Source: Sulfitobacter noctilucae (GTDB taxonomy: Bacteria; Pseudomonadota; Alphaproteobacteria; Rhodobacterales; Rhodobacteraceae). From it: 64,000 nucleotides of DNA. The position numbers and the translations under genes were made by a program. Positions 1,524-38,851 of the stretch are shown here, in pieces (positions within the stretch are counted from its first letter, which is position 1; every line of letters starts with the position of its first letter). The notes under the pieces were generated by a model. The model was not told the DNA's origin. It worked only from the letters and a program-made list of their open reading frames with translations, and searched no databases. The stretch spans positions 1,612,001 through 1,676,000 of the forward strand of contig NZ_JASC01000014.1 in the NCBI RefSeq assembly GCF_000622365.1. The letters are read 5' to 3'.

Positions 1524-1560
1524 AAGTTGATGAACGTCAAGACATTTGGAACACGCCCCC

Positions 1561-2751: not shown

Positions 2752-2780
2752 GGCTTGACCAGCCGAACTAAAGCCTTTTT
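2752..2780 (+). terminator. Possible weak terminator after the GT4 gene
   Basis: GGCTT at 2752-2756 pairs with AAGCC at 2771-2775, followed directly by five T residues. The loop is long (14 bases) and the stem short, so it would be weak. It overlaps the end of the convergent GT2 gene. Confidence 0.35.
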
Positions 2781-3612
2781 ATCTCCCGCGCACCCAACGA
2801 TTACTACTGCGCAGGATCGGCAATTTGATCGCCAGACGCACTGTCACAAAAACGGCAAAGGCCACCGGATCACGCAGCGCACGCCGCCAGACCGGCTCTG
2901 TCCGGTCATGGGGGTCATCATTGTCCATGAGCGCGGGGTAAAGCCGTGCAATCTCGGCCACGCCCGCATCCTGACGGCGGCGCACCTGCACCAAGCGTGT
3001 GAATCCTTCGATCATCGGCCAATCGTATATCGCAGGCACGCGCAGCCGTTCGGCGGGCGTGAACTGAAGCCGCGCAAAGGTGTCGTCCGAAATGATATCA
3101 GGCCAGTCGCCCCATCGCGCGCGCCCTGCCCGGTTCATTGCAAAGACCCCGAAACCCGGCACGCCATGCACCATGAAGGGCGTCGTCAGCCAGAACCGCG
3201 TGTAATGCCGCGTCAGCGCATCCCCTCCCGGCACCGTCACATGGGGCCGCCCGCTCGCATATCGCGGTCGCGGCGTGTCAAGCGCCGCCGTGATCTGAGT
3301 TACCACCTGAGGTGACACAATAACGTCGGCGTCAAGATAGATCAGCACGTCACCCTGCGCGGCCGCCTCCCCCGCATTCCACGCGCCCAGCTTGCCGCCG
3401 TCTGAAAGGTCAAGCACCGTCAAACCCCAGCCCGCCGCCTTGGCCTGCGAAGCAAATCCCTGCGCAATCGCTGCCGTGTCATCTGTGCAACCGTTCGCAA
3501 TCACGATCACTTCTGCCCCATCCGCCACCGGATCAGAGGCCAAAAGCGCATCTAGGCATGCAGGCAAATAGGTGGCCTCATTGTGGGCCGGAATCAAAAC
3601 GGTGGTTTTCAC
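2779..3612 (-). CDS. Glycosyltransferase family 2
   Basis: A 277-residue GT-A enzyme. It begins TTVLIPAHNEATYLPACLDA, has ANGCTDDT for nucleotide binding, and YLDADV supplies the metal-binding DXD-type motif near residue 95; the acceptor part follows. A C-terminal hydrophobic segment (VAFAVFVTVRLAIKLPI) may tether it to the membrane. The start is GTG at 3612 and overlaps the TGA of the upstream SGNH/glycoside hydrolase gene by 4 bases, so it is the last gene of the coupled PKS-NRPS operon. Its position suggests it glycosylates the operon product or a polysaccharide carrying it; that is inference. Confidence 0.87.
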   Translation of the reverse strand: MKTTVLIPAHNEATYLPACLDALLASDPVADGAEVIVIANGCTDDTAAIAQGFASQAKAAGWGLTVLDLSDGGKLGAWNAGEAAAQGDVLIYLDADVIVSPQVVTQITAALDTPRPRYASGRPHVTVPGGDALTRHYTRFWLTTPFMVHGVPGFGVFAMNRAGRARWGDWPDIISDDTFARLQFTPAERLRVPAIYDWPMIEGFTRLVQVRRRQDAGVAEIARLYPALMDNDDPHDRTEPVWRRALRDPVAFAVFVTVRLAIKLPILRSSNRWVRGR

Positions 3613-6131
3613 TGAAACGCCACCAAAGCATCCCAGCGCGGATTGGCATCATCCAGATGGCGTAACGCGCCCCAAGAGCCCCATTTGGTCGGGCTATAGA
3701 CATCGTTGAAAGCGTTGAACAATTGCCCGCCCACCGCCTGCCAGCCTTCCAGCAGAGTGCCATACAATTCGCCCATCTCGGTCGAGTAGTTGAAGTGATG
3801 CAGGAAAGCGGTCAGCTCCGCGTTGTCGACCCGAGGACCAATGCCAACCGCATGGGTGCCGCCTTCGTACATAATCAGGTCCAGCCCTGCTTCCCGCGCA
3901 ACTTTCGCATGATGCGGCCAGACACGCCCCAGCAGATCACTGAGCGTATCGGCCGTGTTGCCACTGATGGCACCATCCAGCACCTCACGCGCAGCCAGAC
4001 TTGTAGCATGATCAAAACGATGTGCGGCAACATAGGCTTCGAGCGCCGCGCCCTCCAACCCGTCGGCCCGTGCCTGCGCGATCGCCTTATCCCGACCCTC
4101 GGCAATCCAGGCATCAACCATCGGCGCACGGTCTTCGAGACCCAGCACCCCCGCGAAATAGCCCGTCACCGCATAAGCATCAAAAGCCGTGACCGGAGGC
4201 GGCATTCCTTCGCCAACTGCCAGCGGCGCGTTCAGTACTTCGGTTTCTAGGCCCAACCAACCTGTCTGGCTTGAGATCACATTGATCAGACGCTCCTTTT
4301 GCCCGGCAAAAACCTCGGACCAGATGCGTGCCACTTCTGCCGCCCGCATCCCGTAGAATTGCATCCACTTTTCCTTTTCTCCCCAGCGCTCCATTCCCAT
4401 CGCCTCGGCCCAGCGGGCCTGCGCGAATTGCCAGTTCCAGACCTCGTTCGAGAATTCCGCATAGACCTTCAGCTTGGGGTCCAGGCCGTCACGCACCGCC
4501 GTGGCAAAGGCCCGCACAAAGCCATCATCCGCAAGATGCGGTATGTTGAACCAGGCATCTTTCTCCAGTTCATTGGCGAGCGCGATCATCACCTCCACCG
4601 GCACACCGGGGGCAAAGCTCACATCATCAGGCTTGGGCCGTTCTGCCCATTGGGACAACTTGGAACCGTTGGTCTCCATCCAGTCCATAAAACGCAGGGC
4701 GCGGAACTGGCCAATCCGCGCAGTCCAATCGGGGTTGAACATTGCACCCTGCTCGAACCGCCGCAGGTTGTCGCCATGAACCACGGTGATGTTGTGAGGC
4801 GGATCGGTCCGGTTGATCCGCTGGATGCGGATGTCCACGCTGCCCGGACCGGGGGTGTAATCAAAACTGACCTCGCCCCGCCCGTAGCGCACGTTTTCCG
4901 CGCGGCCCGTCACTTCGATCACGCCCTTGCCGTCAAAGCTCAGCCGGTAGCGCCCTTTCAGCGATACCGCGTCCTCTGGCATGTCGGTCAGTACCAGCGT
5001 GCCGATGCTGCTGAGTTCGGGAGGCATTTGCAAAGGCCAGCCCTGCGCGTCCAGATACCCGCCTTGCGCCAGTTCATCGCGGGACATGCCACCCCATTGG
5101 CCGGGCTTGTGACCAATCCATTCCCGCGCGGTTTTCATCACGTCAACAAACGGCATCTGCGTGGCCCAATCGGTGACCGGGGCCAGCCCGATCGCCACCG
5201 CGTTTGTCCCTGCAACGGCCCCATCCGGCACCCGCACCACATCGGGCGCAGGTGTGCTGGGCGGGCCAGTGGGGGCTGCGGGTGCGGTGGCTTTGCGCGC
5301 GGCCTGCGCTGGTGGCACGGGCATAACAGCCGCCCCGCCATAGGCCTGCACCGCCTCCCATGCGATCCGCTGTAACTCCCGGGCCAGATCCGGGTCAGGC
5401 GTATCGTAGGATTTGCCATAGGGGTCTTTGAAATCAACAGGCAGGCCCAAGGGGTCCAACCCCGTCAGCACCGCATATTGCACCATGGTGACAAAGTAAT
5501 GGCCCGCATCGTTGAGGTGAATGTCATCGTCAAAAAAGGCACCGATGCCTTCAACCCCCGGCACCTGCCCCGCTACAATCTCGTCATGCAGCCGCGCCAG
5601 CGCCTGCCCGGCGGGGATCAGCGCCACCCTGGCGGTGTCCGAACGGTTCACCGCTGCCACTTCGGCAACGATTTTTTCCCAGACCGGCAAATCCTGATCC
5701 AGCCTTTCGCGCCACGGGATATCGGCCTTGTCATCGTATTCGATCTCTTGGCCCGTGCCGCTTTTCAGGCTGTGCCAAGTTTCCTGCACATAAACCTGTG
5801 CCTGCGGATAGGCGGTGATCGCGAGCCGCGCAAAAGCCTGCGCATAAAAATCCGTCTCGGACCACCTGACATGGTTATCAAGCGGCACCGCCTCGGTCAG
5901 GATCAAATGGCTGATCTTGCCCTCTGGCAGAACCGCGCGGGCATCGACGCCCTCAGCCTTATCGGAATTGTCCCAATTGTATTTCAGCGGCGCTCCGTTG
6001 GTGATCTGCGCCTGCACGGCCGCATCACCGGTGCCGGCCAGCAAAGCCTGCTCCAGCATCGAAGGCCCGGTGGTGCCAAAAAGGCTATGGCCCACCATCA
6101 GGACCGCAAAGACGGTTGAGAGCGGGTTCAT
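3609..6131 (-). CDS. SGNH-like hydrolase fused to a clan-A glycoside-hydrolase-like domain
   Basis: 840 residues. The N-terminal ~240 residues look like an SGNH/GDSL fold: GHS with Ser16, and HLNDAGHYF as the late Asp-x-x-His block. They share GHSL, a YVQETWH-type block and IPAGQ with the next protein upstream. After a Pro/Ala linker (about 285-320), the C-terminal ~500 residues resemble a TIM-barrel glycosidase. FSNEVWN (Glu563) and MYEGGTH (Glu756) are spaced like the acid/base and nucleophile glutamates of clan A. The start is ATG 6131, which gives an ATGA overlap with the upstream gene; an extended start at 6173 lacks support. No clear signal peptide. It may trim or de-acylate the glycan; substrate unknown. 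Confidence 0.6.
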   Translation of the reverse strand: MNPLSTVFAVLMVGHSLFGTTGPSMLEQALLAGTGDAAVQAQITNGAPLKYNWDNSDKAEGVDARAVLPEGKISHLILTEAVPLDNHVRWSETDFYAQAFARLAITAYPQAQVYVQETWHSLKSGTGQEIEYDDKADIPWRERLDQDLPVWEKIVAEVAAVNRSDTARVALIPAGQALARLHDEIVAGQVPGVEGIGAFFDDDIHLNDAGHYFVTMVQYAVLTGLDPLGLPVDFKDPYGKSYDTPDPDLARELQRIAWEAVQAYGGAAVMPVPPAQAARKATAPAAPTGPPSTPAPDVVRVPDGAVAGTNAVAIGLAPVTDWATQMPFVDVMKTAREWIGHKPGQWGGMSRDELAQGGYLDAQGWPLQMPPELSSIGTLVLTDMPEDAVSLKGRYRLSFDGKGVIEVTGRAENVRYGRGEVSFDYTPGPGSVDIRIQRINRTDPPHNITVVHGDNLRRFEQGAMFNPDWTARIGQFRALRFMDWMETNGSKLSQWAERPKPDDVSFAPGVPVEVMIALANELEKDAWFNIPHLADDGFVRAFATAVRDGLDPKLKVYAEFSNEVWNWQFAQARWAEAMGMERWGEKEKWMQFYGMRAAEVARIWSEVFAGQKERLINVISSQTGWLGLETEVLNAPLAVGEGMPPPVTAFDAYAVTGYFAGVLGLEDRAPMVDAWIAEGRDKAIAQARADGLEGAALEAYVAAHRFDHATSLAAREVLDGAISGNTADTLSDLLGRVWPHHAKVAREAGLDLIMYEGGTHAVGIGPRVDNAELTAFLHHFNYSTEMGELYGTLLEGWQAVGGQLFNAFNDVYSPTKWGSWGALRHLDDANPRWDALVAFQ

Positions 6132-7072: not shown

Positions 7073-7088
7073 GGCCTGAGCCTCCACT

Positions 7089-7775
7089 TTACCCAGCGAT
7101 ATCAGCCCAAGCAGCGGTGACAAGATGATTTGCGACCCCGTCAAACCGACCCGGCAGTTGGTCTCCGACTGTAAAACACCCCGCAGGTTTCACAAATGTC
7201 GCGGTAAAGGCCAAGCGTCGCAGGTCGAGTGCAATGTCGACATGGTCAAAACCAATCAACAGACCCGTCAGCGGATATTGCGCTTTGTAGACCGCCTCTT
7301 TGGTCGAGAAAATCAGCTTGGCCAGCCGCAACTGGTCCGGCCCCGCAATCCGCGCAAGCTCTTGATCCGAACAAATGGACGACAAAAGCCCCGGCTCCAA
7401 ATCGGTAATTTCCTCAAGATCAACGCCCAGCGACATGCCGGCGCAAGTCACCACCGCTGCACAGAGAGACGTACTGTGAGAGATGCTGCCTGCCAGTCCA
7501 TCTGGCCAGAGGGGTGCACGGTCGGCATCTGCCGGCACAGGCTTGGGTGGCAGATCAAGCGATGCCATCGCCTGTCGCACCGCGGCCCGTCCAGCAGCAA
7601 ATTCGCGTTTTCGCGCAGGAAAAGCACGGGTCAGATGTGCCGCTTCGTTCCCGATCAGCGCCGGTTGGGGCGCTCGCGGGTCAGTCACAGCAACGCCCAC
7701 CGGGGCGACCCCGTCAAACAACCGTGCGACCACGGCTTGGGTTTGGATCAGACGATCAGGATGATTGATCTGCAT
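7089..7775 (-). CDS. 4'-phosphopantetheinyl transferase, EntD type
   Basis: 228 residues, the normal size for the EntD/PptT class. It moves phosphopantetheine from CoA onto the carrier-domain serine. Key blocks are present: GSISHS, GVDLEEI (magnesium-binding Asp/Glu) and FSTKEAVYKAQY (catalytic Glu-Lys). Its ATG overlaps the NRPS TAA by one base (TAATG), so it is translated with the megasynthases. Its natural targets are the carrier serines of the NRPS (Ser1443) and the PKS (Ser1808) just upstream. Confidence 0.93.
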   Translation of the reverse strand: MQINHPDRLIQTQAVVARLFDGVAPVGVAVTDPRAPQPALIGNEAAHLTRAFPARKREFAAGRAAVRQAMASLDLPPKPVPADADRAPLWPDGLAGSISHSTSLCAAVVTCAGMSLGVDLEEITDLEPGLLSSICSDQELARIAGPDQLRLAKLIFSTKEAVYKAQYPLTGLLIGFDHVDIALDLRRLAFTATFVKPAGCFTVGDQLPGRFDGVANHLVTAAWADIAG

Positions 7776-10700
7776 TACGCACCTGCCTTGCTGCGTCCGG
7801 CCCGCATCGCGCGGCGTTTTGATATGGTCTCGGACTTGTCCGGTACCTCGGCCACAGGTGCGGCAGGCGCACCGGCCCCGCCCGCTGTGTCGATATGCCC
7901 TGCCAACCCTTCCAATGTAGGAAAGCGGAAGATGTCAGTGATCGAAAGACTATCGGTGCCAAGCGCGGCTTTGATGTCGCGGTGCGCCTGCACGGCCAGC
8001 AGCGAATGGCCCCCAAGTGCAAAAAAGTTATCCTCGCCCCGGATGTCGGTCAGACCCAGCAGACCGCTCCAGACCTGCGCAATGGCCGCCTGCGTACCGC
8101 CAGCAGCAAGGGCTGGCGCAGGTGCCCGTGCTGTGCGGCGGCGTTCGGGCAAAGGCAGCGCCTTGCGGTCGATCTTTTTATTGGGCGTCAATGGCATGGC
8201 GTCGACGGTCACGAAATAGCCGGGCACCATGATATCTGGCAGAACCTCAGCAAGAGCCGCGCGCGTGGCCTCGGCATCAAGGGGGGCACCATCGGTCGTT
8301 GCGTAGCCCACCAATTGGGTGCCGCCAAAGGCCTCAACCGTGGTGACGACGGCCTGCGTAACACCTGAAAGAGCCGCCATGCGCGCTTCGATTTCGCCCA
8401 GCTCGATCCGGTGTCCGCGTATCTTGACCTGCGCATCGGCGCGGCCCGCAAAATGCAGCGTGCCGGAGGCATCCCAGCTGGCCAGATCACCCGTGCGGTA
8501 AAGCTTGCCAGCCCCAAACGGATTGGCGACAAAGCGTTCATCGGTCAGGGTATCGCGCTGCCAATAGCCTTGCGTGACACCATCGCCCCCGATCCACAAT
8601 TCCCCTTCAATGCCAATAGGTTGCGGACGCATCTTGTCATCCAGAATGAAGACCTGCGTGTTTGCAATCGGAATACCCACCGGAGCTGTAGCAGCGGAGG
8701 CATCACGAACCATATGAGTGGTCGACCAGATCGTCGTCTCTGTCGGCCCGTACATGTTCTGCAGGGAGGCACGCGTGGCGTTCTGCAGCGCTACCGCCAG
8801 CGATCCCGGCAGTGCTTCGCCGCCCACCATCAGATGCTTGATCCCGCCCAGCGCCGTGCGGGCATCCTCATTTGTGACCAGCATCTGCGCCATCGACGGG
8901 GTACATTGCAGGTGTGTCACGCCATGGCGCACGATCTGTGCGGCAAGCGAGAAATCATCCGGTGCCAGTACAGCTTCCTGATTGGACAGTTTCAGCACCT
9001 CGGCCAGCGGGGTGAGCCCCTCCATGACCAAAGCGGGATCAATGCCGTAGTCGATCAGGCAAGCCACTTCGGTCACGCCGATTTTCTTCAGTTCCTCGAC
9101 CCTTGCGACGCCATCGGCCACAGTGCCGAACATTCCGCTGTCATTGAAATAACGTTGGAACGCAAATTCAAGGATCGCATCGAGCTCCTCTTCCGACACC
9201 CCTTCAAGGTCCAGATCAAAGGCGTTTGCCGTGCCCTCTGGCCGCTTGAACGCAGGGAAAGCCCAAGCGTATTGCTTAATCAGGGCCGCCGCCGAGCGCA
9301 GGTAGTCTTTCATCGGCCCGCGCGCGATCTTTTCGGACTTCTCACGAGTCTCGGCAAGATAGCTGTGCAGCATCAACGTTACGGTGAAATCCGCCGGATC
9401 ATGCCCCGCGTCGCGCAGGGCTTGGTGGTAAATCTTGATCTTGCCGCCGACTTCCTCGACCGATTGGCCCAGGAGGTGCGTCAGTACATTCGCGCCAATC
9501 TCCCCCGCCTCTTTCCAGGTTTGCGGGTTGCCTGCCGTGGTCACCCAAACAGGCAGTTCGGCAGAGACCGGGCGTGGCTGGGTCACCACGGCGTGCATCG
9601 TGCCATCTGTCTTAGGAAATTCGACCGCATCACCGCGCCACAGTTGGCGCAACTGGTCGATGGCGGTATACATCGCCGGCTTATTTGCAGGCGGCGTGTT
9701 TTCGGGTCGCAGGATAAAGTCGTCAGGCTGCCAGCCGCTGGCGATGGCAAGACCAACACGTCCGTTGGTCAGATTGTCGATCACCGCCCATTCTTCGGCA
9801 ATCCTTGCGGGGTGGTGCAAGGGTGCTACGCAAGACCCCGCCCGAACAGCAAGGTTTTGCGTCACCGCCGCCACGGCAGCTCCGGTCACGGACGGGTTCG
9901 GGTATGGACCACCGAAGGCGTGAAAATGCCGCTCCGGCGTCCAGACAGCATTGAAACCGTTGGCATCGGCAAACTTCGCGCCTTCCAGCAACAGCTCATA
10001 TTTTTTGGGGCCGACCCCATCATCATTGCCCCAATACATCAGATTGAAGTCGATTTTTGCGCCCGTCCGCGCAACCGGCCCGTTCGACACCATCGTGCGG
10101 CTCTCGTCGCCTGCCAGCACCAGCTTGAACCCGCGTGCGAGGGTCCAGAACAGCTCGAGCACCGAAATATCAAAGCTGAGCGAGGTGACAGCCAGCCAGA
10201 CCGAGCCTGCCGCATGGTCGATCCGATCATCCATGCCCGCAAAGAAGTTGGCCACATTGCCATGACTGACCATCACGCCTTTTGGAGTGCCGGTGGAGCC
10301 GGAGGTATAGATCAGATAGGCAAGGTCGTCAGCCGTCGCGGCGGCGGCGGGTGTGTCTGCCGAAGCCGACGCAATGCGCGGATCACTGTCCAGCGCGATG
10401 ACCTGCGCCTGATGTGCCGGTAATTGCCCCGAAATGGCGCTTTGCGTCACGATGATGGGGGCCGCGCTGTCGGTGATGTAATGCGCGATGCGGTCCGCCG
10501 GATATCCGGGATCGAGCGGAACATAAGCTCCGCCCGCTTTGAGAATGCCCAAGGCCCCCACCAGCAAATCAAGTCTGCGCGTGGTATAAAGCCCGATGGG
10601 CGTGCCCGGTGCCGTGCCTGCATCGCGCAAAACATGGGCAAGCCGATTGGCGCGTGCATCCAGTTCGGCATAACTGAGCTCGGTATTTTCGAAAACAACC

Positions 10701-12331
10701 GCCGTCGCCTGAGGCGTGCGGACAACCTGCGCTTCAAAGGCAGCATGGATCGGGAGGCGATCATAGGCCCGCTCGGTCGCATTCCATTCGTGCAGCACGC
10801 GCTGCTCTTCGCTTTCGGGCATGGTCCAAAGCCCGTCGCAGATTCCGGCATCTGTCACACGCGCACAGGCGGCATCAATCCGCGCTGCAAATACCGCGGC
10901 AGCATCGGCGCTAAGCCGGGTACTGTCATAAACCAGATGCGCCTCGTTCGTCAGGCAAACCGTCAGAGCGGCACCGGCGAGCGCGTCATCTGTAAGGGAA
11001 AGCGCCACCTGCGGTACCGGATCATCCGCCAGATCGGGATGGCGCAGAACCAGATCACGGGCCATTCCTGCGCTGTCTGCAATACGCTTCAACTGCGCTT
11101 CGATCTCGGCAACCTTGGTCGCAATCTCGTCAGAGCCTTCGGCGACAATGGTCAGCGGCATCCAATCGGCGCCCAGCGGATGGGAAGAGCCCTTTTGGAT
11201 TGCGATGCGCCCGGTTGATACGCCCGCGCTGTGCAACAAAGACAAAACAGCGGCGGTGGCACCCTGCGTGGTTTCAGTGCCTTTCGGCAGTGCGAGCGGG
11301 AATTTTTTCAGCAGCGCATCAGTTCCGCCCGCTTTGATCATAGGCAGGGTCAGCGGCGCATGCTCAAGCAGTTTGCCAAGCCAGTGAGCCTCGTCGTTTA
11401 CCGGCAAATCAGGAAAGCTCTTGGGTATGACCACATCGCCGAGAGCCACAAACGTCGTCAGATCAACCGCCTGCCCCGCGCAATCGGTCAGCCCCTGAAG
11501 CGTAACGGCATCTGTGGAGGTGCCCAGCGTGATGCTGCCCTCGCTAACCGCCAGCACGACGCCTGCGGCACCTGTAACCTCGGGCGCTATGGCAAGAGAA
11601 CCGACGCCCAAAATCTGGTCGCCCAGCGCGACCTTCGGTAAGCCGAGCGGATTGGCATATGCTCCGAAATCCAAGCCCCGCACCAACGCATCCAGCGCTT
11701 CAGCAGGTGCCGTAAAATCCAGCAATCCGCCGTTTGAAGGTCGTTTATCCCGCGCGAAATAGCTGCGCTGGCTCAGGTCCTGGGCCGTCCGTTCCAACAC
11801 GCCCGCTTCGAGCTGCGCCAGTACTGCGCCGAAACTCTCCATGCCTGCGGCATAGCATTTCGAATTCAGGCTCAATGCCGTTTCGCCAGCGGCGATCGGC
11901 ACCTCGACCTGCGCCAGCAGATCCCCTTCGTCCACGCCGCCTTCAATCATGTGCCAACTGACGCCATGCACCGTTTCGCCGTTTATGATGGCCCAAGCGG
12001 GCGTGTTCAGCCCCGCATAGCGCGGCAAAGGGCCATCGTGGAAGTTGATCGCCCCTTTGGCGGGCAACGCCAGCACATCTGCCGGAATCATCCGCAGGTT
12101 TGCGATGCTAAGCAGCCAGTCCGCCGCCACATCCGCCGCAAGCAGATCACGGGGCGCAGACAGGACAGGCAATCCCTTGCCTTCCGCCCAGTCGCGCACA
12201 GCGGTGTCGCGTGTCACCACCACGCTGATGCTGTGACCGCCTGCAAGCACCATATCACCACAGGCAATGGTCAGTGATTCGTCGCCGATCAGGATGGCTG
12301 TGATGCCTTTGGGATTGAATGTGGCGGTCAT
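7775..12331 (-). CDS. NRPS: formyltransferase / degenerate C / A(Gly) with inserted luciferase-like monooxygenase / PCP
   Basis: 1518 residues. Residues 1-300 are a formyltransferase domain with Asn96-His98-Asp134; the 36-residue His-Asp spacing matches GAR transformylase. Residues ~330-520 resemble only the tail of a condensation domain and contain no HHxxxDG. The adenylation domain starts near 525 (A3 TSGSTGTPKG near 677, A4 FDIS at 720). It is interrupted at ~757-1110 by a luciferase-like flavin monooxygenase of the MupA/Atu3671 type, then resumes (A5 MYGPTE at 1193, A10 NKKIDRK). A PCP follows with GGHSL Ser1443; there is no TE. The specificity code read by hand is D721 I722 L725 Q1142 M1168 G1170 M1193 I1201 W1202 K1386, close to the glycine code DILQLGLIWK. 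ATGA overlap with the GT2 gene; strong GGAGGAG site. Confidence 0.92.
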   Translation of the reverse strand: MTATFNPKGITAILIGDESLTIACGDMVLAGGHSISVVVTRDTAVRDWAEGKGLPVLSAPRDLLAADVAADWLLSIANLRMIPADVLALPAKGAINFHDGPLPRYAGLNTPAWAIINGETVHGVSWHMIEGGVDEGDLLAQVEVPIAAGETALSLNSKCYAAGMESFGAVLAQLEAGVLERTAQDLSQRSYFARDKRPSNGGLLDFTAPAEALDALVRGLDFGAYANPLGLPKVALGDQILGVGSLAIAPEVTGAAGVVLAVSEGSITLGTSTDAVTLQGLTDCAGQAVDLTTFVALGDVVIPKSFPDLPVNDEAHWLGKLLEHAPLTLPMIKAGGTDALLKKFPLALPKGTETTQGATAAVLSLLHSAGVSTGRIAIQKGSSHPLGADWMPLTIVAEGSDEIATKVAEIEAQLKRIADSAGMARDLVLRHPDLADDPVPQVALSLTDDALAGAALTVCLTNEAHLVYDSTRLSADAAAVFAARIDAACARVTDAGICDGLWTMPESEEQRVLHEWNATERAYDRLPIHAAFEAQVVRTPQATAVVFENTELSYAELDARANRLAHVLRDAGTAPGTPIGLYTTRRLDLLVGALGILKAGGAYVPLDPGYPADRIAHYITDSAAPIIVTQSAISGQLPAHQAQVIALDSDPRIASASADTPAAAATADDLAYLIYTSGSTGTPKGVMVSHGNVANFFAGMDDRIDHAAGSVWLAVTSLSFDISVLELFWTLARGFKLVLAGDESRTMVSNGPVARTGAKIDFNLMYWGNDDGVGPKKYELLLEGAKFADANGFNAVWTPERHFHAFGGPYPNPSVTGAAVAAVTQNLAVRAGSCVAPLHHPARIAEEWAVIDNLTNGRVGLAIASGWQPDDFILRPENTPPANKPAMYTAIDQLRQLWRGDAVEFPKTDGTMHAVVTQPRPVSAELPVWVTTAGNPQTWKEAGEIGANVLTHLLGQSVEEVGGKIKIYHQALRDAGHDPADFTVTLMLHSYLAETREKSEKIARGPMKDYLRSAAALIKQYAWAFPAFKRPEGTANAFDLDLEGVSEEELDAILEFAFQRYFNDSGMFGTVADGVARVEELKKIGVTEVACLIDYGIDPALVMEGLTPLAEVLKLSNQEAVLAPDDFSLAAQIVRHGVTHLQCTPSMAQMLVTNEDARTALGGIKHLMVGGEALPGSLAVALQNATRASLQNMYGPTETTIWSTTHMVRDASAATAPVGIPIANTQVFILDDKMRPQPIGIEGELWIGGDGVTQGYWQRDTLTDERFVANPFGAGKLYRTGDLASWDASGTLHFAGRADAQVKIRGHRIELGEIEARMAALSGVTQAVVTTVEAFGGTQLVGYATTDGAPLDAEATRAALAEVLPDIMVPGYFVTVDAMPLTPNKKIDRKALPLPERRRTARAPAPALAAGGTQAAIAQVWSGLLGLTDIRGEDNFFALGGHSLLAVQAHRDIKAALGTDSLSITDIFRFPTLEGLAGHIDTAGGAGAPAAPVAEVPDKSETISKRRAMRAGRSKAGA

Positions 12332-13338
12332 GGTTTCTCCTCCGAAATGCGGACGGCAGGCTGCGCCTTGGGGGTAGCGGGTCGCGATAGGCTAAACCCG
12401 TGGCGCAGCAGATCGCGGTAAAAGCCGGGTGGGTCGTGCCGCTCGCTGCCGCTGAGCATTGAGCGCAGATTGTGGATCGCGCCACCTGCCAGCTTGGCTG
12501 CGAGGGCCGCAGCAGCATAGGCTCGCCCGTGGTTTTTGACAAAGTAATGCTGGCGCGAGGCGAACCAATAATCAGGCACCCGCGCCCAACCCTTCATGCC
12601 GGTGGACACGGAACCGATATGCACAACTTTTGCATCCGGCATATACCAGCACTCCCACCCCGCCGCGGCACCGCGACGGATCAGGTCGGTTTCCTCGAAA
12701 TACAGAAAGAAGGTTTCGTCAAACAGGCCCACTTCATCCAGCATGGCCGCGCGTATCAGCACGCTGGCACCGGCAACCCAATCGACCCGCGTCGTTGCTT
12801 GCGGCAGATCGGGCGCGATAATGGAGCCGCGCAGCAAACGCGAGATCGGACCGGTGCGTGCTGCCGCCTCGAATTCTCCGGCGATGGTTGGGAAGCGGAA
12901 GGCCGTGGTATGTGCCACATCGTCCTCGCCGCGCACATGGCTGCCGACAAGTCCGGCACTCGGCGTTGCCTCAAGATGGGCGACGAGCGCAGGCAAACAG
13001 CCTGCATCGGGAAAGGCATCAGAGTTCAGCAAGTAGAAATAATCAGGCGCGCTGCCGTCCGACATCGTACTGCGCAGACCGATGTTATTGCCAGCGCCGT
13101 AGCCGCCGTTCACCGGAGACAGCATCAGCCGCACGCGGCCTTGCGCATCCCAGCCGCGTTCCGTGACTGCCTGGGCCAAAACCTCCGCCGAGCCATCGGC
13201 AGAGGCGTTGTCCACGATGACCAGTTCGGCCCCGCTCGGCATATCCACCAGGGCGGCCTCTACCGCACGCAGCGTCATCTTGGCCGTGCGGTAATTGAGC
13301 ACAATCACCAGAACCGAAGGGTTGCTTGTCCCGCTCAT
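12328..13338 (-). CDS. Glycosyltransferase family 2, rhamnosyltransferase-like
   Basis: 336 residues of the WbbL-like GT2 group. VLVIVLNYRTAKMTLRAVEA opens the GT-A fold, then DNASADGS, LLNSDAF (metal-binding region) and LYFEETDLIRR (acceptor and catalytic loop), a block typical of rhamnosyl- and related transferases. The gene lies between the PKS and the NRPS and overlaps both by 4 bases (ATGA at each end). Sugar transfer is therefore probably stoichiometrically tied to the assembly line. The acceptor could be the polyketide-peptide or a lipid-linked glycan; sequence does not decide. Confidence 0.88.
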   Translation of the reverse strand: MSGTSNPSVLVIVLNYRTAKMTLRAVEAALVDMPSGAELVIVDNASADGSAEVLAQAVTERGWDAQGRVRLMLSPVNGGYGAGNNIGLRSTMSDGSAPDYFYLLNSDAFPDAGCLPALVAHLEATPSAGLVGSHVRGEDDVAHTTAFRFPTIAGEFEAAARTGPISRLLRGSIIAPDLPQATTRVDWVAGASVLIRAAMLDEVGLFDETFFLYFEETDLIRRGAAAGWECWYMPDAKVVHIGSVSTGMKGWARVPDYWFASRQHYFVKNHGRAYAAAALAAKLAGGAIHNLRSMLSGSERHDPPGFYRDLLRHGFSLSRPATPKAQPAVRISEEKP

Positions 13339-16300
13339 TCCGCAGCCGTCGCCTGACGCCAGTCGGCTCCCATGTCGTCACCGTCCAACCCGCGCGCAAT
13401 CACCTCGGCCAGTTCATGCGACAGCGTCGTGACATTCGGGGCCAGCACCATGCTGACATGATCACCCGGCACTTCAATCACCTCGACCTGCGGGGCGAAT
13501 TTGCGCCAGTCGTTGTCCTCCAGCACATATTCTTTTTCCCGGCTGACAAACTGCCCGCCAGTCACAGCCCAATGCCGGTCAAGCGGTGGGCGGAACAAGG
13601 TCAATGGGCCGTCCCAATTAGGCGTTTGGTAAGACCCTACCGCCTCTAAGAACGCATCGCGCACCGCGAGATTGTTGAACTCGGCCCCTGTGGCGGTGTC
13701 GATCTGATCTTGCGTCCCTGCACGTTTCGCCTTTTCCCAGGCCCAACGGTTGCGCGCCCACTCCAACAGATAACCCGGCCCCTTGCTGCGCAGCTCTGCC
13801 AGCTTGATCAAGGCCTTATCCGCACGGCTAAGGCTCGGGCGCACAGGCAGTGGCGTGTCGAGCAACACAAGAGCCGCCACTTCCTCGCCCGCAGCCCGCA
13901 ACTGCTGGGCCATTTCATAGGCCGTGATGCCGCCGCCCGAATATCCCGCCAACAGATACGGACCATCGGGCTGCACGCGCCGGATCTCGGCAAGGTAGTC
14001 TTGGGCAGCTTCGCTTACATCGCGGTGCGGCGGCGTGTCGCCAATCAGACCACGCGCCTGCACGCCAAACACCCGCCGCGTATCGCTGAGCGGCAGCGCA
14101 AGATGACGCAGGTTCAGCACATTGCCGAACATGCCAGCCACCACAAAAAGCGGAGCTGCATTGCTGCGGTCGCTCTGGTTCAGTGGCACAAGGAATTCAT
14201 GACGCTGAACGGGCACCGCATCAGTATCTTCAGCAGATGCCACATCGGTCTGGCCGGTCTCGGCTGCGATCAAGGCGGCGCATTTTGCGATCGTCGGTGC
14301 CTCGAACAACACCGAGATCGGGAAATCCACTTTGAACTCGCGTTTCACCGTTGCAAATAGGCGCACCGCGATCAGCGAATGGCCCCCCAGATCAAAGAAA
14401 CTGTCCTCAACCCCCACGGGGCTAACGCCCAGCAGGTTCTGCCAGATCTCGGCCAAACGCTCTTCGATACCGTTGCGCGGGGCAACATAGGAGCCGTCCA
14501 GATCAGGCCGTTCAAAGCTTTGCCCCACAGATACAGTGGCCTCTGCGGGCGCATTCGCCTGTGCAATCAGACCGTCAATCGGCAATGAGGATACTATGAC
14601 CTGCGGTCGGTTTATGGCCATCGCGCGGCGCAATGCCTCTAACCCTTCGTCGGCCCGAATACCTTGCGACACCAGATAGGCCAGCCGTTCTTCGGCGGGG
14701 CTGCGGGAGGTTTCTGTCTCGGCGGCATCATCAAAGACGACCTCGGCGGCGGTCAGCGGACTCTCCCCCAGCCCTTCGTCCAGCCGTTTCATGGCGAAGT
14801 CCGACACCTCGACCAGCACATTGCCCTGCGGATCGGTGAGTGTCACATCAAAGCGGGCAAATGCGCCCTGCCCCGCATCGCGCACCCGCACGTGGGATCG
14901 CAGCTCGGCAGGCAAAGGCGCGTAGACGCGGATCAACCCGTAGGAGACCGGCACCCAAAGGTGTGCGTCGGTGTAATCAGGCGCAAGGGCGACAGCCCAG
15001 CCGGTGGCCAGATCCATCAAACCGGGGTGAAGCACATGGCTGTCGTCGGCAGCTTCAGGGAGCGCAAGCGTGGCGATGCCCTCGCCCTGGCCCATGCGGG
15101 TTTCGCGCAGCACATGCCAGGCGGGGCCGAAATTGAGATGTTTTTCCTGAGGCGACCGGAGACGCTCACCTTGCGCCGCGGTTTGGGCGGTGCCACAGCG
15201 TGCGGTAATGTCTGCGAGATCCAGCGGTGCCGGACGGGCTTCCGCCGTAGGTGCAAGCGCCGCTTGAGCATGCAGTTGCCAGCCTGATTTGCCCTGTAGG
15301 CTGCAATTACTGCGCAGCTCAGCGACGAAGCCACTTCCTTCGGGCTGCAAAGAAAGTCGCATTTCGCGCGATGTTCCCTCTTCAACCGGCATGGCCCGCA
15401 GGAAATAAAGGTCGCGAATCTCGAACCCCTTGAAACCCTGCGCGGTCGCCGCTTCGGCCAGCGCCTCGATATAGGCAGTGCCCGGCAAGATCGCACGGTT
15501 ATCGCTGGTGCGGTGCTGGTCCAGCACCCAGTCTTTGGCGCCGAGCGGTGCCGTGAACACCGGCTGCCCACCCGCAGCAGCGCCGACCTGTTTCAGCAAG
15601 GCCGCGTCAAGCGCACGGGGCGGCAGCACGTCACTGGCCCCGCCACCAAGGGCATTCGCGGCCATACCTACATCAGCCCAAACGCCCCAGTTCACTGCAA
15701 TCACGCGGGTTTTGTCGTGGCTGCGGGCAGCAGCATAGGCGTTCAGCCAAGCGTTTGCCGCGACATAATCGGTCTGACCCGCCGAACGCGTTGCCGTCGA
15801 GGTTGAAGAGAACAGCACGAGGAAATCAAGTGTGCCATCCGACAAAAGCTGATCCAGCACCCGCAGGCCCTGCACTTTCGGCGATAGAACCGCTTCCATT
15901 TGCGCATCGGATTTGGCCAGCATCGGCGCATCGTCCAGACGGCCTGCGGCATGAATGACGCCCGTCAATCCGCCGTCACGATCAGTCAGGTTGGTGATCA
16001 CACGGCGCATCTGGGCAAGATTGGCGGCGTCCGCTGCGGCGACCTCGATGCGCCCCCCCGATGCCTTTGCAATGTCTTCAAGTCGCAGGGCGGCACGGAT
16101 GCGGCGGGCTGTTTTGTCAGCTGTGCCATTACGGGTCAGATAAGCATGCCACGTCTCGCGGGCGGGCAGCGCCTTGCTGCTCAGCAAGACCACGGTCGCC
16201 TTGTGCTCGCGCAGAATATCGGCGGCCAGCGTTTGGCCGATCCCGCCGAAGCCACCTGTGATCAGGTAGCATCCACCATCGCGGAACGCAGGCAGCGCGC

Positions 16301-19300
16301 CTTCGTCAGGTGCCGCCAGTGGCAGGCTGCGGTAACCCATCTCGAACCGTTTTTCGCCACGGTACGCCGCCACGATATTGGCAGGGGTCGCCATCAGCTC
16401 TTCCAGCAGTCGGTCGGCAAGCATATCGTTACTTGAGCCCACTGGCTTCGCTTTCGCGAACCATCCTGTCTTGGCCGGAGCGGTTTGCTCTGCGGGGGCC
16501 AGATCAATCTGGGCGCAGGTCACACCGGGCAACTCCCGGGCGAAAACACCAACGGGGCCTGCGATCAGCGCCTCTTCGGGATGGGGCAGAGCTTCGTCAC
16601 GGACCTGCGCAGCCCCGGCGGTGAAAGCCACAAGATGCAGCGGATCGTTCAGACCAGTCTCGGACAGCGCTTGGGCAAGCCACGTCAGGCTCCAGAACCC
16701 CTGTTCCAGATTGCGGTCAAACACGGAAGAGCCGGGGCGCGGATCAATGTGATCGTCTGTCAGCCAAAAATGCCCGACGCGGTCTGGCATTTGGCCCCGT
16801 TCTTTCAGATCTGCAATCAGTTGGTCATAGCCACCGCGCCCCTGTTCCGGGGCCAGCGTATAGGTATGATCGTTCAGCCGGGCAAAGGCATCGCCTGCCC
16901 GCACACGGATCACAGTATGACCTGCATCCGTCAGCCGCGACATGACTGGCCCGGCCAGCCCTGCGTCATCTGCAAAGATCAACCAAGTGAGCGGTGCGTC
17001 GGCCAGATCAACGGTCACGTCGATTTCGGTGTCGGCAAAACGGGGCCGCCACGAGGGCGCAGCACCCCAGTCCTCCATATCCGGCAAACGGGTCAACGCG
17101 GGCTGCTCTGCCGACTGGACTGCTTTGCCCGGCTCGATAAAATACTTAGACCGCTGGAACTGGTAAGTCGGCAGCACGACGCGGTTGCGCCGCGCCTCGC
17201 CCCAGATCTGGCTCCAATCGGCGTTGACCCCGCAAGCCCAGAGCCGCGCAATCTGGGTCATGAAATACATATCATCCGCGATGTCCTGATCGGGATGGCG
17301 CAGGGTCGAGAGCACCTGCGCGGGTGCAACGCTCTCGCTCATCTGCGCGAGAGCCGACAATGCCTTGCCCGGTCCGACCTCAAGGTACACCCGCTTGCGC
17401 GCTGCGCTGAGGGTGGTGATACAATCGGCGAAATTAACCGTGTTGCGCAGCTGGCCAACCCAGTAATCGGGATCGGTCGCTTCTTCCACTGTGATCATCT
17501 GGCCCGAGCGGTTCGAGGCAAAGGGCATCTGCGGCGCTTGCAGATCAAGACCGGCAAGGAATGCGCGGTAGCGGTCAAGGATCGAAGCCAGCATCCGGCT
17601 GTGTGCCGCAATGTCGATGGCGATACGCTGGTGATCCAGCCCCGCTGCATCCAGCCGCGCAGCCATCGCGTCAAGCGCCGCTTGCGGGCCGGACACGGCA
17701 ATAAGTTCGGGCGCGTTGACCGAGGCTATGTCCAGATCATCGCCCAACAGCGGCGTGATCGTATCGAGCGGCGCCGAGATCGACAGCATGCCGCCTGCGG
17801 GCACTTCGTCAAAGAGCCTGCCGCGCAAGAGCACCAGATCAATGAGGTTTTCAAATGTCATCACACCGGCAAGACAGGCAGCGACGTTTTCGCCCATGGA
17901 GTGGCCGACCATCGCCGTTGGCTGCACGCCCCATGATATCCAGAGCTTGGCCAGCGCATATTCGACAATCGCGATCAGCGGGAGTTGAACAGAAGGCCTT
18001 TTCAGCCGCTCCGTGGCTTCATCGGACGCCCCTTCGTCGGGCAACCACAGCGCGCGGATGTCATAGTCAAGCTGAGGTGCCAGATGATCCAGCCCCCGGT
18101 CCATCCACTCGGCGAACTCCGGCTCCGTTTCATAGAGATCCCGCGCCATGCCCGCATATTGCGCACCGCCACCCGGGAACATGAAAACCACCTCGGGTTT
18201 GTCGCCCAGCGCCTCGTGGGTAAAGACGCGGCGGCTGTCATGCTGCTCCAGCAGGTCGGCGGCCTCGGTAGCTGTTTCAGCCACCACAACGCGACGTTTG
18301 TCAAAGCCGCGGCGGCCGTTTTTCAATGTATGCGCCACATCGGCCAGTGGCTGATCGGGGTGTGCCCGCAGATGTGCTACGAGGGCAGCGGTATTCGCAT
18401 CGAGAGCGGATTTTGACGCCGCCGAGATCACCAATGGCTGGAACGGCCAGTCGCTTTCCTCTGATACAGCGCGCTCGGGCGCTTCTTGCAAAATCATATG
18501 CGCGTTGGTGCCGCCCACGCCCAGCGCATTGATCGCGGCGCGGCGCGGCTCTGGCCCGGCTTGCCAGTCGGTCAGCCGGTCATTCACCCGAAACGGCGAG
18601 CCGTCGAACGGGATCGCGGGGTTCGGCGATTCATAGCCCAGGGATGGCGGGATTTGCCCGTGGTGCAGCGCCAGCGTGGCCTTGGCCAGCCCCGCCACAC
18701 CAGCAGCGGTGTCCAGATGCCCGATGTTGGTTTTGACTGATCCGATGCGGCAAAAATCAACCGCGCCTGTCTGGGTGCGATAGGCTTCAGTCAGGGCTGC
18801 CACCTCGATCGGGTCACCGAGATAGGTGCCGGTGCCATGGCATTCGATCATGCCGATGCTCTGTGCCGCGACGCCTGCGTCATCCAGCGCCTTGGCGATG
18901 GCCTGTGTCTGGCCCTCAACGGACGGCGCCAGATAGCCCGCTTTTTGCGCACCATCGTTATTGATGGCCGAGCCCTTGATCACGGCCCAGATGTGATCAC
19001 CATCGGCCACCGCATCAGACAACCGCCGCAATGCAACCGCTCCCGCCCCCGATCCGAACACCGTCCCTTGCGCGCGGTGGTCAAAGGCGTGGCAATGGCC
19101 ATCCGGCGACAGGATCTCGTTTTCCTTGAACTGATAGCCACGCCCTTGCGGCAGCTCGATCGTGACACCCCCGGCCAGGGCCATATCAACCTCGCCCGCC
19201 CGCAACGCCTGACAGGCATAGTGGATAGCGACCAGAGATGTGGAACAGGCGGTTTGAAGGTTGATCGACGGCCCCTTCAAATCGAACACATGGCTGACGC

Positions 19301-19799
19301 GGGTCGACAGGAAATCCTTGTCATTGCCAGTGTGGCGCAGCAGGAACATGCCCACATCATCCACCAAATCGGGGTTCGAGCAGATGTTGAAATAGAAATA
19401 GCTGCCCATCCCGCAGCCCGCATAGACGCCGATGGGGCCGGGAATGGTTTCTGGTGGATGGCCCGCCTGTTCCATCGCTTCCCACGCCACTTCGAGAAAC
19501 TTGCGGTGTTGCGGGTCAAGGATTGCAGCGTCTTTGGGAGAAAAGCCAAAGAAATCCGCGTCAAATGTATCAAAGCCATCGAGCGGTGCCGCCGCAGGAA
19601 CATAGTTTTTCGCTGCCATGTTCTGGGCTGTTTCGCCTGCGGCCCGCAATTCTTCCTCTGACAACCGGCGGATCGATTCCACGCCATCGCGCAGGTTTGC
19701 CCAATAGGCATCCACCCCGGCCGCACCGGGGACGTTGACCGAAAGGCCAACGATTGCAATATCTTCGCCCGGAACAGGGCGGTTTGTCGAAGACGTCAT
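13335..19799 (-). CDS. Type I polyketide synthase, KS-AT-KR-DH-ACP-TE
   Basis: 2154 residues. KS: TACSTS with Cys185, HGTGT His321, NIGHLD His361. AT: GHSMGE with Ser634, and AAHS at the specificity loop, malonyl-like but atypical. KR: GGFGGIG near 1180, FSSTST and Tyr1345 in TDYVAAN. DH: DQHRTSDN His1429 and HPGLMD Asp1596. ACP: LGGHSL Ser1808. TE: GYSGGG Ser1954 and PGDH His2114. KR precedes DH, the reverse of ordinary modular PKSs. The start is taken at ATG 19799; a TTG at 19808 would add three residues. It is the first gene of the coupled operon, with an ATGA overlap into the GT2 gene. It should add and reduce one malonyl unit and release the product by TE. Confidence 0.93.
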   Translation of the reverse strand: MTSSTNRPVPGEDIAIVGLSVNVPGAAGVDAYWANLRDGVESIRRLSEEELRAAGETAQNMAAKNYVPAAAPLDGFDTFDADFFGFSPKDAAILDPQHRKFLEVAWEAMEQAGHPPETIPGPIGVYAGCGMGSYFYFNICSNPDLVDDVGMFLLRHTGNDKDFLSTRVSHVFDLKGPSINLQTACSTSLVAIHYACQALRAGEVDMALAGGVTIELPQGRGYQFKENEILSPDGHCHAFDHRAQGTVFGSGAGAVALRRLSDAVADGDHIWAVIKGSAINNDGAQKAGYLAPSVEGQTQAIAKALDDAGVAAQSIGMIECHGTGTYLGDPIEVAALTEAYRTQTGAVDFCRIGSVKTNIGHLDTAAGVAGLAKATLALHHGQIPPSLGYESPNPAIPFDGSPFRVNDRLTDWQAGPEPRRAAINALGVGGTNAHMILQEAPERAVSEESDWPFQPLVISAASKSALDANTAALVAHLRAHPDQPLADVAHTLKNGRRGFDKRRVVVAETATEAADLLEQHDSRRVFTHEALGDKPEVVFMFPGGGAQYAGMARDLYETEPEFAEWMDRGLDHLAPQLDYDIRALWLPDEGASDEATERLKRPSVQLPLIAIVEYALAKLWISWGVQPTAMVGHSMGENVAACLAGVMTFENLIDLVLLRGRLFDEVPAGGMLSISAPLDTITPLLGDDLDIASVNAPELIAVSGPQAALDAMAARLDAAGLDHQRIAIDIAAHSRMLASILDRYRAFLAGLDLQAPQMPFASNRSGQMITVEEATDPDYWVGQLRNTVNFADCITTLSAARKRVYLEVGPGKALSALAQMSESVAPAQVLSTLRHPDQDIADDMYFMTQIARLWACGVNADWSQIWGEARRNRVVLPTYQFQRSKYFIEPGKAVQSAEQPALTRLPDMEDWGAAPSWRPRFADTEIDVTVDLADAPLTWLIFADDAGLAGPVMSRLTDAGHTVIRVRAGDAFARLNDHTYTLAPEQGRGGYDQLIADLKERGQMPDRVGHFWLTDDHIDPRPGSSVFDRNLEQGFWSLTWLAQALSETGLNDPLHLVAFTAGAAQVRDEALPHPEEALIAGPVGVFARELPGVTCAQIDLAPAEQTAPAKTGWFAKAKPVGSSNDMLADRLLEELMATPANIVAAYRGEKRFEMGYRSLPLAAPDEGALPAFRDGGCYLITGGFGGIGQTLAADILREHKATVVLLSSKALPARETWHAYLTRNGTADKTARRIRAALRLEDIAKASGGRIEVAAADAANLAQMRRVITNLTDRDGGLTGVIHAAGRLDDAPMLAKSDAQMEAVLSPKVQGLRVLDQLLSDGTLDFLVLFSSTSTATRSAGQTDYVAANAWLNAYAAARSHDKTRVIAVNWGVWADVGMAANALGGGASDVLPPRALDAALLKQVGAAAGGQPVFTAPLGAKDWVLDQHRTSDNRAILPGTAYIEALAEAATAQGFKGFEIRDLYFLRAMPVEEGTSREMRLSLQPEGSGFVAELRSNCSLQGKSGWQLHAQAALAPTAEARPAPLDLADITARCGTAQTAAQGERLRSPQEKHLNFGPAWHVLRETRMGQGEGIATLALPEAADDSHVLHPGLMDLATGWAVALAPDYTDAHLWVPVSYGLIRVYAPLPAELRSHVRVRDAGQGAFARFDVTLTDPQGNVLVEVSDFAMKRLDEGLGESPLTAAEVVFDDAAETETSRSPAEERLAYLVSQGIRADEGLEALRRAMAINRPQVIVSSLPIDGLIAQANAPAEATVSVGQSFERPDLDGSYVAPRNGIEERLAEIWQNLLGVSPVGVEDSFFDLGGHSLIAVRLFATVKREFKVDFPISVLFEAPTIAKCAALIAAETGQTDVASAEDTDAVPVQRHEFLVPLNQSDRSNAAPLFVVAGMFGNVLNLRHLALPLSDTRRVFGVQARGLIGDTPPHRDVSEAAQDYLAEIRRVQPDGPYLLAGYSGGGITAYEMAQQLRAAGEEVAALVLLDTPLPVRPSLSRADKALIKLAELRSKGPGYLLEWARNRWAWEKAKRAGTQDQIDTATGAEFNNLAVRDAFLEAVGSYQTPNWDGPLTLFRPPLDRHWAVTGGQFVSREKEYVLEDNDWRKFAPQVEVIEVPGDHVSMVLAPNVTTLSHELAEVIARGLDGDDMGADWRQATAAE

Positions 19800-21507: not shown

Positions 21508-21637
21508 AGTGGCCAGTGTTCACTCCGTCGCTTTGCGCGGAAATTAGCACTTGGCCTGTTGCCTGTCATCCCGATAGGTTCACCGATATATCCAGCGTCG
21601 GGATCAGAAAGCGCGGCTAATAGTATGATTTTGTTTT

Positions 21638-21649
21638 GTTTTGCAAAAC
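21638..21649. promoter_or_regulatory. 12-base palindrome in the polymerase/WecG divergent spacer
   Basis: GTTTTGCAAAAC is a perfect palindrome in the 194-base spacer between divergent polysaccharide genes, 53 bases before the WecG-type ATG. It may be a regulator-binding site shared by both promoters. A single copy only, so weak evidence. Confidence 0.3.
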
Positions 21650-21701
21650 GGCAGCACACAAACTGCAGCCGAATAGTCACAATACCTCACCGAGGTGGCT
21701 G

Positions 21702-24434: not shown

Positions 24435-24552
24435 GGAGTTGCGATATGCCAGATCGGCGGGCCGGTCCACCGTTGCGCCTTTTATGATCTGCGGATTGCT
24501 GCGCGGCGGGGCAGTTTGGCAACCTTTTGCCAGAGTCGCCCTCATGCGCAGA

Positions 24553-38748: not shown

Positions 38749-38851
38749 GAACGGCAGACTGCCCCAGCCCATTGCCCATGTCCATGCCCGCCTTGCGCAA
38801 ACCCTTCAAAAGACATCAAACTTTGAGTGCGATTTTTGGTCAATTTTGTGC

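Follow-up and report, generated by a model that had tools for sequence, protein, structure and literature searches.

Several described systems resemble parts of a seven-gene block that we analysed in Sulfitobacter noctilucae (Rhodobacteraceae), where genes for a nonribosomal peptide synthetase (NRPS) and a type I polyketide synthase (PKS) lie inside a polysaccharide locus; the window is the whole stretch analysed, 64,000 nucleotides long (contig C14:1612001-1676000 of a 3.9 Mb genome). The initiation module of the linear gramicidin synthetase LgrA is laid out as formyltransferase (F), adenylation (A) and peptidyl carrier protein (PCP) domains. In D-alanylation of teichoic acids, the Dlt system employs an A domain and a carrier together with an extracellular SGNH-fold protein, and an amino-acid-derived acyl group is placed onto a polymer. 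PgaB, which acts in poly-N-acetylglucosamine export, is a two-domain protein with a polysaccharide deacetylase as its first domain and a glycoside hydrolase (GH)-like barrel. The myxothiazol and melithiazol lines end in glycine modules with a built-in monooxygenase (MOX), in MtaG and MelG. This enzyme is reported to be inserted between motifs a4 and a5 of the glycine module and to hydroxylate glycine, after which the carbinolamide splits, giving a glyoxyl thioester and an amide; the solanimycin B insertion, by contrast, lies at a8-a9 and the hydroxyglycine is retained (PMC10204066). An adenylation-domain survey gives four glycine A domains with MOX, all of which have the specificity code DILQLGMIWK (PMC12283262). 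As for polysaccharide clusters, a type I PKS gene has been described inside the rhizobial and Burkholderia capsule clusters (RkpA/WcbR), and the part of that account at hand mentions no NRPS, formyltransferase or glycine-MOX (PMC3908369); we draw this likeness from the description, not from sequence.

We found that the block occupies positions 2779-19799 of the minus strand, within a polysaccharide locus that looks to be of the Wzx/Wzy type, and is transcribed in the order PKS, GTa, NRPS, 4'-phosphopantetheinyl transferase (PPTase), SGNH1, SGNH2GH and GTb, where GTa and GTb are GT2 glycosyltransferases (Table 1). With the likeliest ATG or GTG starts, the six junctions measure -4, -4, -1, +16, -4 and -4 bases. 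The re-derived open reading frames and coordinates confirm the arrangement given in a preliminary description of this DNA (seven minus-strand genes, overlaps of 1-4 bases at five of six junctions and a 16-base gap at the sixth), and Pfam and NCBIfam bear out the thioesterase-ended PKS, the formyl-NRPS, the PPTase and the two glycosyltransferases named there. We tentatively read the NRPS-PKS product as bound to the polysaccharide, with the seven genes forming the acyl/ketide branch of one Wzx/Wzy-dependent exopolysaccharide (EPS) pathway, and give this reading a probability of about 0.45.

Table 1. Seven-gene block and neighbouring genes in the window.
Feature	Position	Strand	Basis
Wzx-type oligosaccharide flippase	92..1441	-	PF13440, 163.7 bits; PF01943, 102.7 bits; well above the Pfam cut-off
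GT4 glycosyltransferase, EpsE-like	1546..2748	+	NF041876 EPS_EpsE, 236.9 bits, best NCBIfam match
GT2 glycosyltransferase GTb	2779..3612	-	PF00535, 84.1 bits
SGNH2GH: SGNH-like domain and C-terminal glycoside-hydrolase-like (clan GH-A type) barrel	3609..6131	-	Motifs and fold search
SGNH1: SGNH-like hydrolase or transferase with N-terminal hydrophobic segment	6128..7072	-	Motifs, weak fold matches
4'-phosphopantetheinyl transferase (PPTase)	7089..7775	-	PF17837, 85.9 bits; PF01648, 44 bits
NRPS starter: formyltransferase, remnant without condensation motif, adenylation domain with luciferase-like monooxygenase insert, carrier	7775..12331	-	PF00551, PF00501, PF00296, PF00550
GT2 glycosyltransferase GTa, between PKS and NRPS	12328..13338	-	PF00535, 59.4 bits
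Type I PKS: ketosynthase, acyltransferase, ketoreductase, dehydratase, acyl carrier protein, thioesterase	13335..19799	-	Pfam domains
Wzy/O-antigen-ligase-like membrane protein	20050..21507	-	PF04932, 20.3 bits, below the cut-off of 31.7
WecG/TagA/CpsF-type glycosyltransferase	21636..22451	+	PF03808, 153.6 bits
GT2 glycosyltransferase	22453..23394	-	PF00535, 57.6 bits
GT2-like glycosyltransferase	23391..24902	-	PF13704, 61.6 bits

Similar to LgrA, which is also its top solved-structure match, the NRPS begins with a formyltransferase followed by an A domain and a carrier. The formyltransferase domain (PF00551, 66.7 bits) has an intact N-H motif in 40 of 40 cases, in all of which the monooxygenase and carrier motifs are kept as well. 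No condensation (C) domain was found ahead of the A domain: Pfam detected none in the NRPS at E<=0.001, and the HHxxxD motif is absent at residues 250-530 in all 26 relatives scanned. The Pfam scan places the AMP-binding domain in two stretches with a bacterial-luciferase domain between them and the carrier after. This insert, identified as TIGR04020 (MupA/Atu3671 luciferase-like monooxygenase, LLM; 466 bits in NCBIfam), covers residues 762-1112; the motifs on either side of it, FDISVLELF (from 720) and NMYGPTE (from 1192), place it between A4 and A5, like the flavin monooxygenase in the glycine-activating A domains of myxothiazol and melithiazol (PMC10204066, PMC12283262). Besides the LgrA entries, the LLM PuwE (6ket) was matched among solved structures. 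The preliminary description had recognised the formyl-NRPS, yet the monooxygenase within its A domain had gone unmentioned.

The ten-residue A-domain code, read via motif anchors placed by PheA numbering, is DILQMGMIWK in the window and DILQ[M/L]GMIWK in 13 of 13 aligned sequences; four are identical to DILQLGMIWK, and nine, including the window, have M instead of L at position 299. In a wider set of 26 sequences, where the regular expression left at least two positions unread in 7, a formyltransferase motif was recognised in 22, and 21 of these have a code that starts with DILQ and ends with MIW; four (L071, L072, L100 and L103) carry Y or F at position 299. Judging by sequence, the NRPS is predicted to be a formylating starter module which loads glycine, formylates it and oxidises its alpha carbon. 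It differs from LgrA in the glycine-MOX code and the inserted LLM, and in having a PKS as partner instead of further NRPS modules. In contrast to the myxothiazol and melithiazol enzymes, which cleave the chain at the end of the line and leave an amide, the monooxygenase belongs here to the first module, with formylated glycine as its expected substrate; thus, the A4-A5 insertion and the glycine code are shared, but the amide-releasing terminal position is not. A siderophore of the Atu3671/fabrubactin kind was considered given the same LLM family name and rejected, as no siderophore transport family occurs among the locus proteins scanned.

In the PKS, we found the catalytic residues of the ketosynthase (Cys/His/His), acyltransferase (Ser/His), dehydratase (His/Asp) and thioesterase (TE; Ser/Asp/His), the ketoreductase Tyr/Asn and the carrier Ser to be invariant in 40 of 40 sequences (the window and 39 aligned relatives; the PKS of L063, whose frame runs to the end of its stretch, was left out). 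By Pfam, the NRPS shows neither a C nor a TE domain, and the TE sits on the PKS. In distant relatives (L080, L083, L089, L095, L101, L102, L063, L221 and L222) both genes share a strand, with the NRPS upstream; the two genes adjoin in L089, L095, L101 and L102, are separated by a GT2 gene in L080 and by about 1.8 kb in L083. This order, taken with the finding of no C or TE domain in the NRPS, supports a line in which the NRPS acts first and the PKS last. The product predicted from the domains would be an oxidised formylated glycine extended once, giving a C4 acid or lactone that may or may not keep the formamide nitrogen, with malonyl as extender unit and a single round of extension assumed. 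The "small polyketide-peptide" of the preliminary description would therefore narrow to a single glycine-derived C4 unit, while its operon-like block in a polysaccharide locus stands.

The tightness of the block goes beyond chance, since it recurs among relatives. The PKS-GTa-NRPS order is kept in 39 of 40 loci, and GTa overlaps the NRPS start in 28/39. Gaps within -25 to +30 bases are found between PKS and GTa in 38/39, GTa and NRPS in 35/39, NRPS and PPTase in 30/34, and SGNH2GH and GTb in 18/18 cases; spacing is looser from SGNH1 to SGNH2GH (12/20) and from PPTase to SGNH1 (6/19), junctions at which rule-chosen starts often give larger overlaps. All start codons in the relatives were chosen by rule and some N-termini are probably wrong, e.g., that of SGNH2GH in L051. 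Across the 40 loci, matches were obtained for PKS in 40, PPTase in 34, SGNH1 and SGNH2GH in 20 each, and GTb in 19. A promoter and terminator scan was uninformative (5 and 20 sites vs. shuffle means of 5.4 and 17.6).

The linkage extends to the polysaccharide genes. A match to Wzx, Wzy, EpsE or WecG (E<=1e-6) occurs in 31 of the 40 loci, taken at 18.4 kb, vs. none of three control stretches, one of which (L155) contains an SGNH-GH paralogue; relatives of the Wzy-like gene itself are present in 15/40. With wider flanks, an EPS marker was found in 16 of 17 named Rhodobacterales loci (at least 24 kb, NRPS at least 51% identical), L070 being the exception; L102 (41%) and the short L076 and L099 were left out of this set, and the count falls to 14/17 if the marker match must reach 45% identity. 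Paracoccus L094, which frame changes break up, is treated as present in the counts. In L071, L072, L073, L077, L092, L100 and L103, GTb and Wzx are located on the other side of the PKS, accompanied in six of the seven by an SGNH2GH match; thus, in other genera the set is kept while its order changes. The NRPS-PKS pair also lies among polysaccharide genes on annotated plasmids of Parasedimentitalea, Ruegeria (two), Paracoccus, Aminobacter and Shinella, on an unannotated Rhizobium grahamii plasmid and in Sphingobium sp. Leaf26. In a Salinivenus metagenome-assembled genome (MAG; phylum Rhodothermota), genes for a GDSL lipase, PPTase, NRPS, GT2, PKS and DegT stand in a row. The linked conservation on which the preliminary description had staked its proposal is thus present, and one operon-like block within a polysaccharide locus, with conserved linkage in relatives, is supported. 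A separate secondary-metabolite cluster that came to lie beside EPS genes by chance is unlikely given this linked conservation.

We detected the NRPS in 46 of 62 genomes of the genus, 145 of 394 sampled genomes of the family and 7 of 385 sampled genomes of the class, five of these seven belonging to the window's own family. Within the genus, 47 genomes have PKS, SGNH2GH and the EpsE-like gene together, and the other 15 have none of them, where absence means no match at E 1e-100 (NRPS), 1e-150 (PKS), 1e-20 (SGNH2GH) or 1e-40 (EpsE-like); a 38% PKS match in genome G054 was not counted as an orthologue. G053, which is 64% complete, has these three genes and no NRPS match. Among the 394 family genomes, with an SGNH2GH cut-off of E<=1e-60 and in counts that ignore phylogeny, NRPS and SGNH2GH occur together in 129, NRPS only in 16, SGNH2GH only in 7 and neither in 242. 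For the 129 co-occurrences, the two genes lie within 45 kb in 94, farther apart on one contig in 5 and on different contigs in 30. Two further observations concern individual genomes. In G008 (contig C1, about 2405346-2423625), the NRPS match is split into four, and stop codons interrupt both the PKS and the EpsE-like gene, which reflects either joint decay or poor sequence; in G009, G029, G051 and G055, the Wzx of the locus is apparently replaced, as the sole match is a 51-52% identical Wzx elsewhere in the genome.

As for the two genes called "SGNH-like" in the preliminary description, the name is supported by conserved motifs, GHS and DxxH, and by a fold match that is weak; neither matches a Pfam or NCBIfam family or, convincingly, any PDB sequence, and the larger has an additional GH-like domain. 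In SGNH1, GHS is kept in 19 and DxxH in 20 of 20 matched genes, although the L064 match is actually an SGNH2GH gene. Its AlphaFold model (pLDDT 81) matched GDSL esterases and the CE2/CE3 families with probability up to 0.99, all fold matches being weaker than E 1e-3 and the two best by E being unrelated folds. The open frame of SGNH1 reaches 7144, and that of SGNH2GH extends from the chosen ATG to 6173. SGNH2GH likewise contains GHS and DxxH motifs, and its SNE (575-577) and YE (769-770) are invariant in 12 aligned sequences, an alignment which mixes forms with and without the SGNH domain; some relatives match the barrel part only. The barrel matched galactanase GH53, xylanase GH10, GH5 mannanase and the C-terminal domain of PgaB (E down to 1.2e-4, probability 1.00, target TM-scores 0.35-0.54) in a model that is poor overall (pLDDT 64, pTM 0.51) and mostly above 70 over residues 531-820. 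SGNH2GH thus resembles PgaB in its two-domain build, and differs in a first domain that is SGNH-like, not a deacetylase. Function could not be drawn from sequence relatives of solved structure, for which SGNH1 gave no match and SGNH2GH one at chance level (E 0.73). The genome of the window also encodes a paralogue of SGNH2GH, a 1166-residue RTX-repeat protein (L155:8694-12194, contig C4) whose gene adjoins one for a D-lyxose isomerase and lies close to a sulfatase gene, consistent with a secreted polysaccharide-acting enzyme.

The surroundings of the block look like a nearly complete Wzx/Wzy-type locus. The preliminary description had noted a flippase and a polymerase-like gene flanking the block; the former is secure, and the latter reaches only a sub-threshold Wzy_C score (Table 1). 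The GT4 gene is named EpsE-like, not EpsE, because its score lies below the NF041876 cut-off of 400 bits. Together with the flippase we found a priming sugar-phosphate transferase (Bac_transf, 191.8 bits; L154:16756-17598), about 2.4 kb before the window, which is followed by a ParA-like kinase and, from L154:18731 on, a Wzc-like frame read by eye and not profile-scanned. No outer-membrane exporter (Wza) was found among the proteins scanned, no search by name having been made, and no family of MBOAT, siderophore or receptor type is represented in the locus proteins scanned; one relative (L150) does have acyltransferase genes. Adjoining the polysaccharide genes (24553-26180), an H-NOX (haem-NO-binding) gene is followed by one for an HNOBA-GGDEF diguanylate cyclase, whose frame overlaps the GT2-like frame, so that one of the two starts is probably wrong; a switch from nitric oxide to cyclic di-GMP (c-di-GMP) could control the locus. 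A second c-di-GMP gene, encoding a response-regulator GGDEF protein, lies at 29102-30505. Farther on, the window contains genes for an MTTB-family methyltransferase (26371-27933) and a nitrile hydratase pair (37460-38772).

Taken together, attachment to the polysaccharide is the best reading, and the route that we infer would run as follows. The PPTase would activate the carriers; the NRPS starter would load glycine and formylate its amine, and the built-in flavin monooxygenase would hydroxylate the alpha carbon. The formyl-hydroxyglycyl unit may then stay intact, or split into formamide and a two-carbon glyoxylyl thioester as in myxothiazol and melithiazol. The PKS would add one extender (malonyl assumed), reduce it and perhaps dehydrate it, and its thioesterase would release or transfer the C4 acid or lactone, which GTa and GTb would help to attach to a sugar in the polysaccharide repeat. 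SGNH1 and SGNH2GH, taken as exported, would act beyond the inner membrane, where they trim material, transfer it or set it free. The scheme is akin to Dlt in combining an A domain and a carrier with an SGNH-fold protein, and departs from it in the added PKS and formyltransferase and in that no MBOAT (DltB-like) protein is found among the scanned locus proteins.

A number of observations weigh against this route. Its weak point is that no enzyme clearly transferring the acyl product to a sugar was found among the scanned locus proteins, which contain neither MBOAT nor AT3 (the Wzc-like frame lies outside the scan), and the PKS thioesterase could merely hydrolyse. In the PKS itself, the AT motif IAAHS leaves the extender unsettled, the ketoreductase Ser position as picked is Ser in 27/40 and Ala in 13/40, and the first Asp of LDD is kept in 30/40. 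Nine of the 40 loci of 18.4 kb have none of the four EPS markers. In Aminobacter and Shinella, PKS and NRPS are divergent and GTa is not between them. In L221, which comes from a different family of Alphaproteobacteria, a zinc ABC transporter adjoins the pair and none of six scanned neighbours belongs to a polysaccharide family; nor was one seen in Acanthopleuribacter L083 (two neighbours scanned) or the Comamonadaceae MAG L089 (three). L102 (Ruegeria sp. HKCCA6707), a distantly related NRPS-PKS pair with an NRPS 41% identical, has none of the four markers, though two glycosyltransferases lie just upstream. On the mobilizable Aliiroseovarius plasmid L157, a related A-LLM protein is followed by a large 9.2-kb NRPS/PKS gene, and no polysaccharide genes are annotated near the A-LLM protein. 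The family counts disregard descent, and for the genus pattern two changes suffice on a pyrG tree that covers 57 genomes, 13 of them negative (G049, G053, G054 and G055, with no pyrG match, and G046, with no locus, lie outside it); joint loss or gain was therefore seen about twice, not many times, and genus co-occurrence is weakened as a strong proof of joint function.

The main rival to a polysaccharide-bound product is a free small molecule under common regulation: an acid, lactone or aldehyde that the cell would secrete as a signal or to modulate the EPS or biofilm state, its genes being clustered for co-regulation and not for binding to sugar. We regard this as rather unlikely, although a thioesterase normally gives a free product, c-di-GMP genes neighbour the locus, a LuxR-type (GerE) regulator lies near one relative (L222) and the L221 pair stands without recognised polysaccharide genes. 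The rival is also kept alive by genes for an AcrB-type pump, an HlyD-type adaptor and an MFS transporter at L154:3535-9183, about 11-16 kb before the window, which could export such a product. Yet, no single exporter or receptor type recurs in six annotated relatives (a TolC gene occurs in Aminobacter and a type I secretion pair in Shinella), and GTa keeps a nearly constant place between PKS and NRPS, often overlapping the NRPS start.

That same position of GTa would suit a glycosylated metabolite independent of the polysaccharide, in which GTa and GTb would glycosylate what the NRPS and PKS make, the neighbouring Wzx/Wzy genes belonging to a different system. Salinivenus, too, has a GT2 gene between NRPS and PKS, and no Wzx or Wzy was recognised in its stretch (BLAST against the reference set; five proteins Pfam-scanned). 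We consider this explanation improbable, however, as the EpsE-like and SGNH-GH genes are absent in the genus where the PKS is absent, SGNH2GH tracks the NRPS across the family, and a GH-like partner suggests a polymer substrate. Least probable to us is a purely historical linkage, by which the NRPS-PKS and EPS genes travel as an island, sometimes on plasmids, with no joint function. Related NRPS genes do occur on plasmids and the genus distribution amounts to few events, but linkage of these functional classes recurs across Rhodobacterales, Rhizobiales and a Sphingobium, partly in different orders, and the genes interleave with overlapping ends.

The available part of one report describes a "T1PKS-NRPS-like hybrid cluster" with no product assigned, found by antiSMASH in Sulfitobacter faviae (PMC10221251), possibly the present cluster. 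In searches of the open-licence PMC literature we recognised no description of an EPS-linked formyl-NRPS/PKS; the preliminary description likewise knew of no described system with this set. A PKS in a capsule cluster is already known from RkpA/WcbR; it is the version with formyl-NRPS, glycine-MOX and PKS for which no described equivalent was found. In its widest form, which we consider doubtful, our proposal is that a sizeable group of marine bacteria have an EPS with a non-sugar component, built by NRPS and PKS from formylated, oxidised glycine, a C4 group maybe of hydroxyglycine type or aldehyde-bearing and possibly of sufficient reactivity to cross-link or anchor the matrix, with attachment and removal by a dedicated glycosyltransferase and an exported SGNH/GH pair. 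The NRPS is present in 144 of 393 sampled genera of the family, and the trait is therefore probably widespread among these bacteria. Were the product bound to EPS, it would constitute a chemically new class of coat decoration and give a reason for these genomes to retain a PKS-NRPS, mostly as a single copy.

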